Origin: Megamonas hypermegale
GTDB taxonomy: Bacteria; Bacillota; Negativicutes; Selenomonadales; Selenomonadaceae
DNA length: 64,000 bases
NCBI RefSeq assembly: GCF_900187035.1
Contig: NZ_LT906446.1
Coordinates: 372,001-436,000, forward strand
Direction of reading: 5' to 3'
In this document: one piece after another, positions 34,723 to 38,301 of the stretch
How the letters are laid out: every line of letters begins with the position of its first letter
How positions within the stretch are numbered: the stretch's first letter is position 1
The notes under the pieces: model-generated
The model's input: only the letters and a program-made list of their open reading frames with translations
Databases searched by the model: none
What the model was told of the DNA's origin: nothing
Position numbers and translations under genes: made by a program

Positions 34723-34730
34723 AATAAAGA

Positions 34731-34762
34731 AAGAACTGATTGTATAATCAGTTCTTTTCTTT
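34731..34762. terminator. Bidirectional terminator, nitroreductase / LRAT gene
   Basis: AAGAACTGAT (34731-34740) / ATCAGTTCTT (34747-34756) with flanking A- and T-rich tracts, between two convergent genes. Confidence 0.85.
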
Positions 34763-34774
34763 TAGCTTAAAAAA

Positions 34775-36034
34775 TTAATTTTTTTCTTGGGGTTTTTCTG
34801 TCAATGCTAATTTTTTATCGTTTGGCAAACTAATTTTTGCTTGTTTATCATCTAAAATAAATTTACTTAATTGAGTTTTATCTTCTAAGCTTAAATTATC
34901 TTTGATTAAATTTGTTATTATATTTTGCGTTAAATTGCCTGTTTGTTCTAATATTTTATCTTTGCTATTAATGAAACCACTTATAATTTGCTGTTGTCTA
35001 ATCTCTAAAGACTTTAACTGCATATCATGATGTTTCATTTGAGCATTCATATCATTTTGGATTTGTTGGAAATATAATTTATGTGCTGGTGTTCCTTCAG
35101 GATATTTTTCTAATATAGATAATAAATTTGGCAATTTTTCTGTATTATATTTATCATTATCAGCTACTATCCTATCATTTAATTCTTTATACATATTTTC
35201 AATATCTTTTACGATAGGCAATGAAGCTCTTTCGATTATTTCAATTCTATTGTTAGTAATCTGCGTCAATTGTTCTTGCATTGCTATGATTGTCTGTGCC
35301 ATTACAGTGAAGCCTTTTGCCTTCGCTTCTTCTACTAAAATTTTAGCTTCTGCTTCATCTCTTAATAATTCCATTTGAGCCTGTTTTATCAGTTCTACGC
35401 GTTCCGTTTCCATTTCTGATAAGCGGATTTTGGTTTCTGCTTCAATTTGTGCTATTTTCACTTTATCTGGTTCATAATTATAATTAGTAGTAGTACGACT
35501 GCCACTACTAGAACCACCAAACCAGCTCTTTATTGTAGACCATATACCCATAAAATCATTCTCCTTGCGCTTAGTAAAAACTTTTTCTACTTGATGACTG
35601 CGAAATCTTCCCAAAGTACATACATTAGCAAAATGCTCGCAGTTATTAAAAATCAGATTATAGCCCTTATCGCCTAAACAAGCTCTAGCATAAATTACTA
35701 TTTGTTCAGGTGAGTATAAATCAGCAAATTCCTCATCAGTATATTCTTTTACTTCTAATATACCACCTTTTAGAAAGTAAGCTAAATCAGTCTGTATAAC
35801 TTCTGGTTTTGACCAGTCCAATATACTGTCATCATCTTTCCCTGTAAAGTGAATTACTTCTTCATCAGATACATAAATTCCATGATGAGCGTATAAGCCA
35901 TTCATTCTTTGTACACGGATATGGTCGCCTTTTTGGGGCATTTTTTGTACCCATATTTCTTCTTCTTCTTCTGGTATGCAAGGCACTTCATAATTAGGAA
36001 AGACATTTGTACTCATTAAATCGAATTTGTTCAT
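34775..36034 (-). CDS. LRAT/NlpC-P60-fold domain protein with long coiled-coil tail
   Basis: A 419-residue cytosolic-looking protein. Residues ~33-150 form an LRAT-type domain with an apparently intact active site: His51 in AHHGIYVSD, His62 in VIHFTG, Cys132 in FNNCEHFANVC, matching the H-H-C arrangement of lecithin:retinol acyltransferase/HRASLS enzymes (acyl transfer or hydrolysis on lipids, or peptide/amide hydrolysis). A Trp-rich amphipathic segment (MGIWSTIKSWFGG, ~162-174) follows, then a glutamate/lysine-rich coiled coil (~190-380). No signal peptide. The ATG overlaps the stop of the upstream coiled-coil gene (TAATG), so the pair is coupled. Function unknown. Confidence 0.8.
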   Translation of the reverse strand: MNKFDLMSTNVFPNYEVPCIPEEEEEIWVQKMPQKGDHIRVQRMNGLYAHHGIYVSDEEVIHFTGKDDDSILDWSKPEVIQTDLAYFLKGGILEVKEYTDEEFADLYSPEQIVIYARACLGDKGYNLIFNNCEHFANVCTLGRFRSHQVEKVFTKRKENDFMGIWSTIKSWFGGSSSGSRTTTNYNYEPDKVKIAQIEAETKIRLSEMETERVELIKQAQMELLRDEAEAKILVEEAKAKGFTVMAQTIIAMQEQLTQITNNRIEIIERASLPIVKDIENMYKELNDRIVADNDKYNTEKLPNLLSILEKYPEGTPAHKLYFQQIQNDMNAQMKHHDMQLKSLEIRQQQIISGFINSKDKILEQTGNLTQNIITNLIKDNLSLEDKTQLSKFILDDKQAKISLPNDKKLALTEKPQEKN

Positions 36035-38106
36035 TATTTTTTCATTAAACCTTTACGCATTTTGAAAATCAATGAATTATACGCTTTTTCTCGATTAGCT
36101 TGTTCTTGGCTATACGCTTTGATATCTGCTAAATACATATAGTAATTTTTCTGCTTTAATTTAGCAAATTCATTCAATACTTCTTGTGAAATCTGCTCTA
36201 AATTATTATCCGCTACAAATTGTATGATTTCATTGATTTGAATGTCGATTAAATTATCAATCCAACGCAAGATAAAAATTTTATCTGCTTCTTTTTTACA
36301 ATTAAAGATGATATTCTGCAATGCTTTTTGTAAATTCATGGTGCGAGCATAGAGCTCTTTTTCCACTTCAAATTTTTCTTGCAAGTCACCACAATTTTGG
36401 AATACGTATTGTTGATAGATATTTTTGCGTTCTTCAAGATAAAAATTATCAACAGCGATTTTATAATCATTTAAAACGTAAATTGCCTGCATGATAATAG
36501 GTGTTTCTTGTTCTTCTTTTGCTTCGATATCGCCTTTTAATCCTCTTGCTATCATTGGCTGAAGTTTTTCTTCAATGGTGAAACGCAATTTCTGCCAATC
36601 TTCATACCATTTTTGCCAAATTTCTGCTTCGATATCATCTTCTTCACAGATGTGTTTTAATTCTTCATATTGTTTAGTCTTAAATACCTTGTAGTCTTCA
36701 TTCCATTTAGACCATACTTCAACTGCTTTGACGATAAAATCGCGATTATGTTCAAAGAAATCTATTTTTTGCAATGCTTTATTCACTATTTTAGCCGTAT
36801 TTTCAGCTATTAATGCAAAACTTGCACGTCCTTTTTTCTCCAACTGTGCTAATTTATAAATAACATTACTGCCATCATCGATTTCATTGATAGTGTATTC
36901 AATATCATCAGCTTCTTGTCTTATTTCTAATAAATTCGCTTGTACTTTATCCATGCCCAAAGCTAATTTATCTTTAAAATAATATTGGCGATTTTTCAAT
37001 AATTCGTTTTCTGCCTCTGTTAAATTGCTATCATCTTTATACGTTGTTGATAATTGCAAACTGATTTGATTGCAGTCTTGAATGACATTTTCTTTTTGCT
37101 GTTCAAAATCAGCTAAGTATTCCATTAGTTCATCTATCCATTGTTGTACAGCTTCATAATATTTGATAATGGATTTATCAATAGACGCGATATCGTATTT
37201 ATTTAATAATGTCTTATAATCAAAATTAGCAGTTATAGTCTTCACTTCTTCGCACTGTGCTAACTGCGTTTCTACTTCGATCAATGCTTGCAATAATCTA
37301 GGCTTTTCAAAATAAATTTTCTTATATAAATCAGTGATTTCAGCATCATCAAATATAGGTAAAAATTCATTTTCTCTAAATAAATCCAAAGTAAATTGCA
37401 ATCTTTCTTTTTCTGTATACAATGGATTATCTTCCGATACATTTTTTTCATATTCACTATCTTGTATTAAATAATAACTACAAGATATTAACCAACCTTT
37501 ACACGTGCATGGATTACAATCATCTAAGTCAACGCTATTATTTGATGAATTATTTACATTACAACACCAATAATCTTTTCCTCTTATTCGCCAATTATTA
37601 CCTTGTTGAAAGGGAAAAGTCTTATCGTATATCATATGTTTAAATACTTCTAAGGTTGGTATTTGCCAATTATCTATACCATCTACATTATAATTATTTA
37701 CTAAAGATTTTGCTTCATTTAAAGTATACGTAGTATTATTTTCTTTTCTATAAGGAAAATAATCTAAATTAGCCCATAGTATACCTGTTGTTTTATCCAT
37801 TAATATATGTTGTTTATTTTTAAAGAAATACCAACGTTGATTTTTTATCGCCTCGAGAATTTTATCTATTGCTGTTGAAGATAATTTATCTATTTCGCTA
37901 TTGATAGTCTTTAATTTTTCTTGCACTGATTGCAATTGTTGTTTTAAATTATTTTGATTGCCCATCAATTGAGCTTGCACTTTATTTAATTCTTGTATTT
38001 TTTGAGCATTATGTTTATTTTCGATGCCTTCATATTGTTCGCCTATTTCTTGAATTTTATCTAATAGTTCTTGCTGTCTTGATTTTAAATTTTCTAATTC
38101 ACTCAT
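36034..38106 (-). CDS. Large coiled-coil protein with an Lcl/DUF1566-like domain
   Basis: A 690-residue protein without signal peptide. Residues 1-80 are a coiled coil; ~100-215 read like an Lcl/DUF1566 domain (MDKTTGILWANLDYFPY, TLNEAKSLVNNYN, GIDNWQIPTLEVFKHMI, with cysteines in DYWCCNV and CNPCTCKGW); the remaining ~470 residues are mostly helical and charged. Lcl domains are usually on surface proteins, so a cytosolic copy embedded in coils is odd. AAGGAG precedes ATG 38106; candidate -10 TATAAT near 38148-38153. First gene of a two-gene unit with the LRAT protein. Confidence 0.78.
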   Translation of the reverse strand: MSELENLKSRQQELLDKIQEIGEQYEGIENKHNAQKIQELNKVQAQLMGNQNNLKQQLQSVQEKLKTINSEIDKLSSTAIDKILEAIKNQRWYFFKNKQHILMDKTTGILWANLDYFPYRKENNTTYTLNEAKSLVNNYNVDGIDNWQIPTLEVFKHMIYDKTFPFQQGNNWRIRGKDYWCCNVNNSSNNSVDLDDCNPCTCKGWLISCSYYLIQDSEYEKNVSEDNPLYTEKERLQFTLDLFRENEFLPIFDDAEITDLYKKIYFEKPRLLQALIEVETQLAQCEEVKTITANFDYKTLLNKYDIASIDKSIIKYYEAVQQWIDELMEYLADFEQQKENVIQDCNQISLQLSTTYKDDSNLTEAENELLKNRQYYFKDKLALGMDKVQANLLEIRQEADDIEYTINEIDDGSNVIYKLAQLEKKGRASFALIAENTAKIVNKALQKIDFFEHNRDFIVKAVEVWSKWNEDYKVFKTKQYEELKHICEEDDIEAEIWQKWYEDWQKLRFTIEEKLQPMIARGLKGDIEAKEEQETPIIMQAIYVLNDYKIAVDNFYLEERKNIYQQYVFQNCGDLQEKFEVEKELYARTMNLQKALQNIIFNCKKEADKIFILRWIDNLIDIQINEIIQFVADNNLEQISQEVLNEFAKLKQKNYYMYLADIKAYSQEQANREKAYNSLIFKMRKGLMKK

Positions 38107-38301
38107 TTTATTGCTCCTTTTATGTATTATTACTTAATGTTTTTATATAATATTATATCCCCCTAGATATATTTAGTATACATATTTTTATATATTTTTA
38201 CATAAAACTACAAAATCCCTTTTATTTTATTTTTTTTCTTATCATGATATAATGTGAACTGCACATTTTTGTTAAATTTGGTATACTAAGAGGAGATTTA
38301 A

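Follow-up and report, generated by a model that had tools for sequence, protein, structure and literature searches.

The window, a stretch of 64,000 nucleotides from a complete genome of 2.23 Mb (G000), contains an adjacent gene pair, here termed A and B, which raises two questions: what the pair does, and whether it belongs to a system that is already known. An earlier note, made from the letters alone, had described the pair as a two-gene module inserted between core genes. We consider it most likely, with a rough probability of 0.6, that A and B form a two-gene sensor-effector conflict module, probably acting in abortive anti-phage defence. The features of the locus are as follows.

34723..38301, no strand: putative accessory insertion from the nitroreductase gene to ruvC; the equivalent gap in the sister species (G001) is 135 bp.
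36034..38106, minus strand: gene B, open reading frame of 690 aa, candidate sensor/scaffold; relatives with the same layout occur in three other lineages.
37882..38106, minus strand: N-terminal coiled coil of B (residues 1-75), helical in the model and supported by alignment.
37417..37881, minus strand: putative DUF1566/Lcl_C-type domain of B (residues 76-230), from a weak Pfam match, a homologue over the cut-off and alignment.
37462..37749, minus strand: segment of B (residues 120-215) that is hypervariable among relatives; the window B has no close relative.
36037..37236, minus strand: helical Bcore (residues 291-690), modelled mostly at pLDDT 75-94 and conserved in all paired B proteins.
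34775..36034, minus strand: gene A, open reading frame of 419 aa, candidate membrane effector; its core occurs only with B upstream.
35606..35938, minus strand: LRAT/PLAAT domain of A (residues 33-143) with H50, H62 and C132; PF04970, PLAAT2 structure match at 2.9e-11.
35516..35551, minus strand: amphipathic segment of A, MGIWSTIKSWFG (residues 162-173), helical moment 0.53, similar in relatives with and without LRAT.
34865..35473, minus strand: coiled Acore of A (residues 188-390), long helices in a low-confidence model, conserved alongside B.

B precedes A, and the two reading frames, present with the lengths given in the earlier note, share 1 nt at their junction (TAATG). The pair is flanked by a nitroreductase-family gene and by a gene which, from its sequence, we take to be ruvC. 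The claim of an insertion between core genes is borne out by the sister species, in which the flanks are 74-80% identical, the gap between these two genes is just 135 bp and the pair is absent; the pair appears to be an accessory insertion in the window genome, or else was lost from G001. Its G+C content is 29%, vs. 34% for the window.

The presence of an LRAT-type domain in A is well supported, since PF04970 matches residues 33-143 (6.9e-25) at 88.1 bits, far over the curated cut-off of 24.3. A profile of nine A relatives retrieves the structures of PLAAT2, PLAAT3 and PLAAT4 (2.9e-11 to 4e-8), and in the alignment H50, H62 and C132 of A fall on the catalytic residues of PLAAT2 and PLAAT3, whose roles are general knowledge for this family. 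The His-His-Cys residues, previously noted as intact, are indeed conserved, but the PLAAT-type set comprises H50, H62 and C132, as the invariant H51 lies opposite a Trp in PLAAT2. Conservation among homologues, which had been left to be checked, is complete for H50, H51, H62 and C132 in the B-linked LRAT domains (16/16), including a divergent second copy in Delongbacteria. Six LRAT proteins free of B retain C132 and carry Ala or Ser instead of His at position 62. These proteins, approximately 195-216 aa long (L183:9462-10052, L184:9173-9751 and L185:9308-9901, plus L186, L188 and L189), have H50 as well and may represent relatives that are altered or inactive. We infer that A is a PLAAT-like phospholipase/acyltransferase. 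As in the PLAAT/HRASLS proteins (PF04970), a hydrophobic or amphipathic membrane segment follows the catalytic domain; A differs from them in its long coiled core and obligate operon partner.

The enzyme domain brings in two further explanations. Metabolic acyltransferases occur among LRAT proteins and their relatives (PMC12994826), and A could accordingly be a housekeeping enzyme that adds acyl groups to a lipid or lipoprotein, or removes them, with B serving as its scaffold; this is very unlikely for an insertion that is rare and accessory, in which the LRAT domain is optional and the B relatives carry a hypervariable segment. Alternatively, A could be a secreted interbacterial effector with B as an immunity or adaptor partner, by analogy with Tox-Act1, a permuted NlpC/P60 toxin related to the LRAT clade that acts as a T6SS phospholipase effector cleaving PG and PE (PMC12994826). 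A shares with Tox-Act1 and related effectors a permuted papain-like superfamily directed against bacterial phospholipids, but Tox-Act1 is secreted and accompanied by an immunity gene, whereas A is seemingly intracellular and paired with B. Secretion-associated domains were found in neither protein and secretion genes were not recognised near the pair, which makes a secreted effector highly improbable.

Beyond its enzyme domain, A contains both the amphipathic Trp segment and the coiled coil noted earlier, in a different order: the segment (~162-173) lies between LRAT and the coil of about 200 residues rather than after the coil. The predicted structure of A was too poor for fold comparison. 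Six relatives with a single A gene lack the LRAT domain, and the three LRAT-less proteins that were inspected start right at the amphipathic segment, which makes anchor and coils the constant part of A and the enzyme an add-on. These forms imply that the coil complex may have its own role or that other effectors may join it. In one Delongbacteria cluster (L039:77-7557), B is present twice, together with several A-type genes, among them one separate LRAT gene and two LRAT-less A-core genes.

The anchor and coils, retained in the LRAT-less versions, are also what would be expected of an envelope-stress or membrane-maintenance module, in which A would be a peripheral protein with PspA-like logic remodelling phospholipids and B would organise it on an endogenous ligand. 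Defence and envelope stress had both been named in the earlier note as possible roles, with no choice between them; defence is favoured here. The pair is sporadic and missing in the sister species, and further evidence on this alternative comes from the variable segment of B and from gene neighbourhoods, considered below.

Relatives were sought in the class (380 genomes) and in 84,980 species genomes, and their neighbourhoods were then read. In every one of the approximately 20 A-core loci found, a B-core gene precedes A on the same strand, either immediately or, where Delongbacteria have extra A copies, farther upstream within that cluster. The overlap at the B/A junction is 4 nt in 12 relatives. 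The pair, whose co-occurrence elsewhere had been open in the earlier note, is thus present in other lineages too. The pairing is one-directional, B without A being common, and the parts are shuffled: A may be without LRAT and B may bear other N-termini. A tight operon with the partner gene leading and a lipase-type domain in A would also suit a toxin-antitoxin or addiction pair, with A as a membrane-lipid toxin restrained by B and the locus maintained without sensing of invaders. We regard this as unlikely: B is frequently found alone, the enzyme domain is frequently missing from A, and a pure antitoxin leaves both the hypervariable DUF1566 segment and the alternative N-termini of B unexplained.

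The pair is rare. A search of another 398 genomes from the Neobacillus class found no relative, and only weak matches limited to the DUF1566 part were obtained in 1 of 391 genomes of the G780 class and in 1 of 12 other genomes from the phylum of Delongbacteria. Most relatives come from metagenome-assembled genomes. A phage or plasmid origin was rejected, since B has no match in phages or plasmids, A has only LRAT-domain matches there, and two scans of viral_contigs yielded no relatives. Phages do carry the domain itself, as LRAT-type ("NC domain") proteins are present in two Acinetobacter phage records (H21 and H22).

The Lcl/DUF1566-like domain proposed earlier for B was recovered with a qualification. 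The window B itself matches DUF1566/Lcl_C (PF07603) at 4.3e-4 and 21 bits, under the cut-off of 34.9, so the assignment rests on homologues, in particular L173, which scores 44.1 bits and is 38% identical to the window B across the domain. In the Legionella collagen-like protein Lcl, the C-terminal DUF1566 domain is used for ligand recognition, as proposed for B; that protein, however, is secreted, carries collagen repeats and keeps its domain conserved, whereas B is seemingly cytosolic and its domain is hypervariable among relatives. The Bcore yielded no Foldseek match at E<=0.001 in PDB or BFVD, and its best VIA-align Z of 9.4 is within the chance range of helical bundles, so no fold was assigned. 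B-cores in other proteins carry different N-termini, IF2_N-like in several cases and unassigned domains in L145 and L153. In the B proteins of L146, L147 and L156 (and similarly L149-L152 and L155), the Bcore follows a small IF2_N-like domain at the N-terminus in place of DUF1566, often without A; these N-termini are possible alternative sensors. A distant B-core relative with IF2_N, about 450-520 aa long (L175:8623-10197; many genomes in genus g10 have similar ORFs), is possibly a resident paralogue and the source of the module.

Variation within the DUF1566 domain is concentrated in one segment. Among 27 B-type proteins, the mean entropy per 10-residue block is 1.7-2.5 bits over residues 121-200, vs. 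0.9-1.2 bits over residues 81-120. Close relatives show this more plainly. L158_7 and L166_10, two B proteins with a divergent, shortened C-terminus instead of the full core, share 99% identity in the coil, 89% and 94% in the stretches flanking the segment and 97% at the C-terminus, and only 17% over residues 120-215. Their DNA is mostly 93-100% identical from 1.5 kb upstream, drops to 20-43% over ~300 bp and then returns to 93-100%. Canonical B proteins behave in the same way, with 91, 26, 89 and 85% identity before the segment, within it, after it and in the core for L135/L138, and 100, 48, 96 and 91% for L135/L137. All these values describe relatives, the window B having none close enough for such a comparison. 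As a change of this kind is expected from an arms race, the ligand of the segment would be encoded by an invader; an endogenous ligand, as in the envelope-stress explanation, is not expected to drive segment replacement between near-identical relatives.

DUF1566 is a frequent target domain of diversity-generating retroelements (DGRs; PMC4159848). Lectin-like variable domains are also the proposed sensors of DGR-diversified conflict systems (Dore et al., PMC10907252), which differ from the present pair in having NACHT or ternary components rather than an LRAT effector. A DGR origin of the segment was rejected for the window: G000 has no reverse transcriptase (no RVT_1 match) and no template repeat, the pair DNA and the DUF1566 profile each matching the genome once only. 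Reverse transcriptase matches are absent from the genome holding L158 (G168) and several are present in that holding L166 (G151). The divergence between these two loci is wholesale, unlike adenine-specific mutagenesis, and whole-segment replacement by recombination appears to fit the hypervariability better than a DGR. Directly downstream of A in L141, a 957-aa protein (L141:11239-14112) combines endonuclease/exonuclease/phosphatase, reverse transcriptase and group II maturase domains; found at one locus only, it was not counted as a part of the module.

Beyond the family of the window the pair occurs in three lineages, and in each it adjoins a recognised defence system; this proportion is suggestive and does not represent a measured enrichment. 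In G340, type III-D genes (Cas6, Cas10, Cas5/Cas7 and Cas7 matches) start 213 bp past A, with Cas6 nearest. In Neobacillus sp. OS1-33, the pair is followed by an integrase and, 2.9 kb off, by BrxA, BrxB and BrxC (BREX), and in a Delongbacteria genome a gene matching type IIG restriction-methyltransferases comes next, 72 bp away. The Selenomonadaceae loci sit amid housekeeping genes, outside defence islands, and a scan of 73 neighbours gave no more than single matches to models of the AAA and GTPase types, which we read as housekeeping proteins. The housekeeping setting favours the envelope-stress explanation and the defence neighbours of other lineages speak against it; we consider that explanation possible but doubtful. 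Some further details of gene order were also recorded: a gene for a TerD plus TerF-type vWA protein lies convergently beside B or the pair, by a serS-like gene (L143:11200-12579; relatives occur in L139 and L160), and genus g10 has, at a number of distinct sites, a PTS EIIA-like gene, recognised by eye, directly upstream of B (L136:7319-8131, L138:274-807, L148:7538-8059, L154:5012-5521 and L133:7204-7959).

The defence reading of the pair is favoured by the constant association of the A-core with an upstream B-core, usually with a 4-nt overlap; by catalytic residues that are invariant in B-linked LRAT domains, with H62 missing in the six B-free ones; by the alignment with PLAAT phospholipases and the hypervariable segment between near-identical flanks; and by the adjoining defence systems in G340, Neobacillus and Delongbacteria together with the absence from the sister species. 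It is weakened by the Selenomonadaceae setting, the frequent occurrence of B without A, the occasional lack of LRAT in A, and the absence of a PADLOC match. The sensor-effector resemblance drawn earlier thus gains from modular swapping, segment hypervariability and three defence neighbours, and loses from the location of the Selenomonadaceae loci.

Under the defence reading, B would be a cytosolic scaffold whose DUF1566-type domain offers a fast-evolving binding surface for an invader-encoded ligand, and A would be kept near the membrane by its amphipathic segment and joined to B via the coiled cores. Ligand binding to B would release, activate or cluster A at the inner membrane, where A would deacylate phospholipids; the inner membrane would be damaged, and the infected cell would die or stall. 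Such activation at the membrane is proposed from the cleavage of PG and PE by Tox-Act1 and from the effect of recruiting a PLAAT3 fragment to mitochondria, which causes their deformation and potential loss in a catalysis-dependent manner (PMC9338259). Membrane phospholipids would be degraded and the infection would be abortive, a predicted outcome that resembles that of CBASS phospholipase effectors, although no cyclase or signalling nucleotide gene lies beside the pair and the lipase domain is unrelated.

As to novelty, no family of PADLOC-DB 2.0.0 matches A or B up to E = 1, and a known anti-phage defence system was rejected on this basis; NCBIfam gave nothing over cut-off for either protein. 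The literature covered, which included few subscription papers, yielded no published description of the pair, and the search for a known function, suggested earlier, found none on record. Each part comes from a known family, and the coupling of a variable sensor to an enzyme that attacks membranes is a principle already known in outline. These results suggest that the pair is undescribed as a bacterial self-defence module, probably directed against phages. More tentatively, it may represent an undescribed class of immunity: a lectin-like DUF1566 recognition segment inside the cell would vary through exchange of segments, with no retroelement involved, and would exert direct control over a PLAAT-type phospholipase attacking the membrane of its own cell. 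If so, PLAAT-type lipases would join the bacterial immune effectors, which would connect phage defence with a family known chiefly from vertebrates, and a hypervariable recognition domain would be seen to change through segment replacement and not through a diversity-generating retroelement. A direct test would then be open: whether phage specificity follows the recognition segment when it is swapped between alleles.
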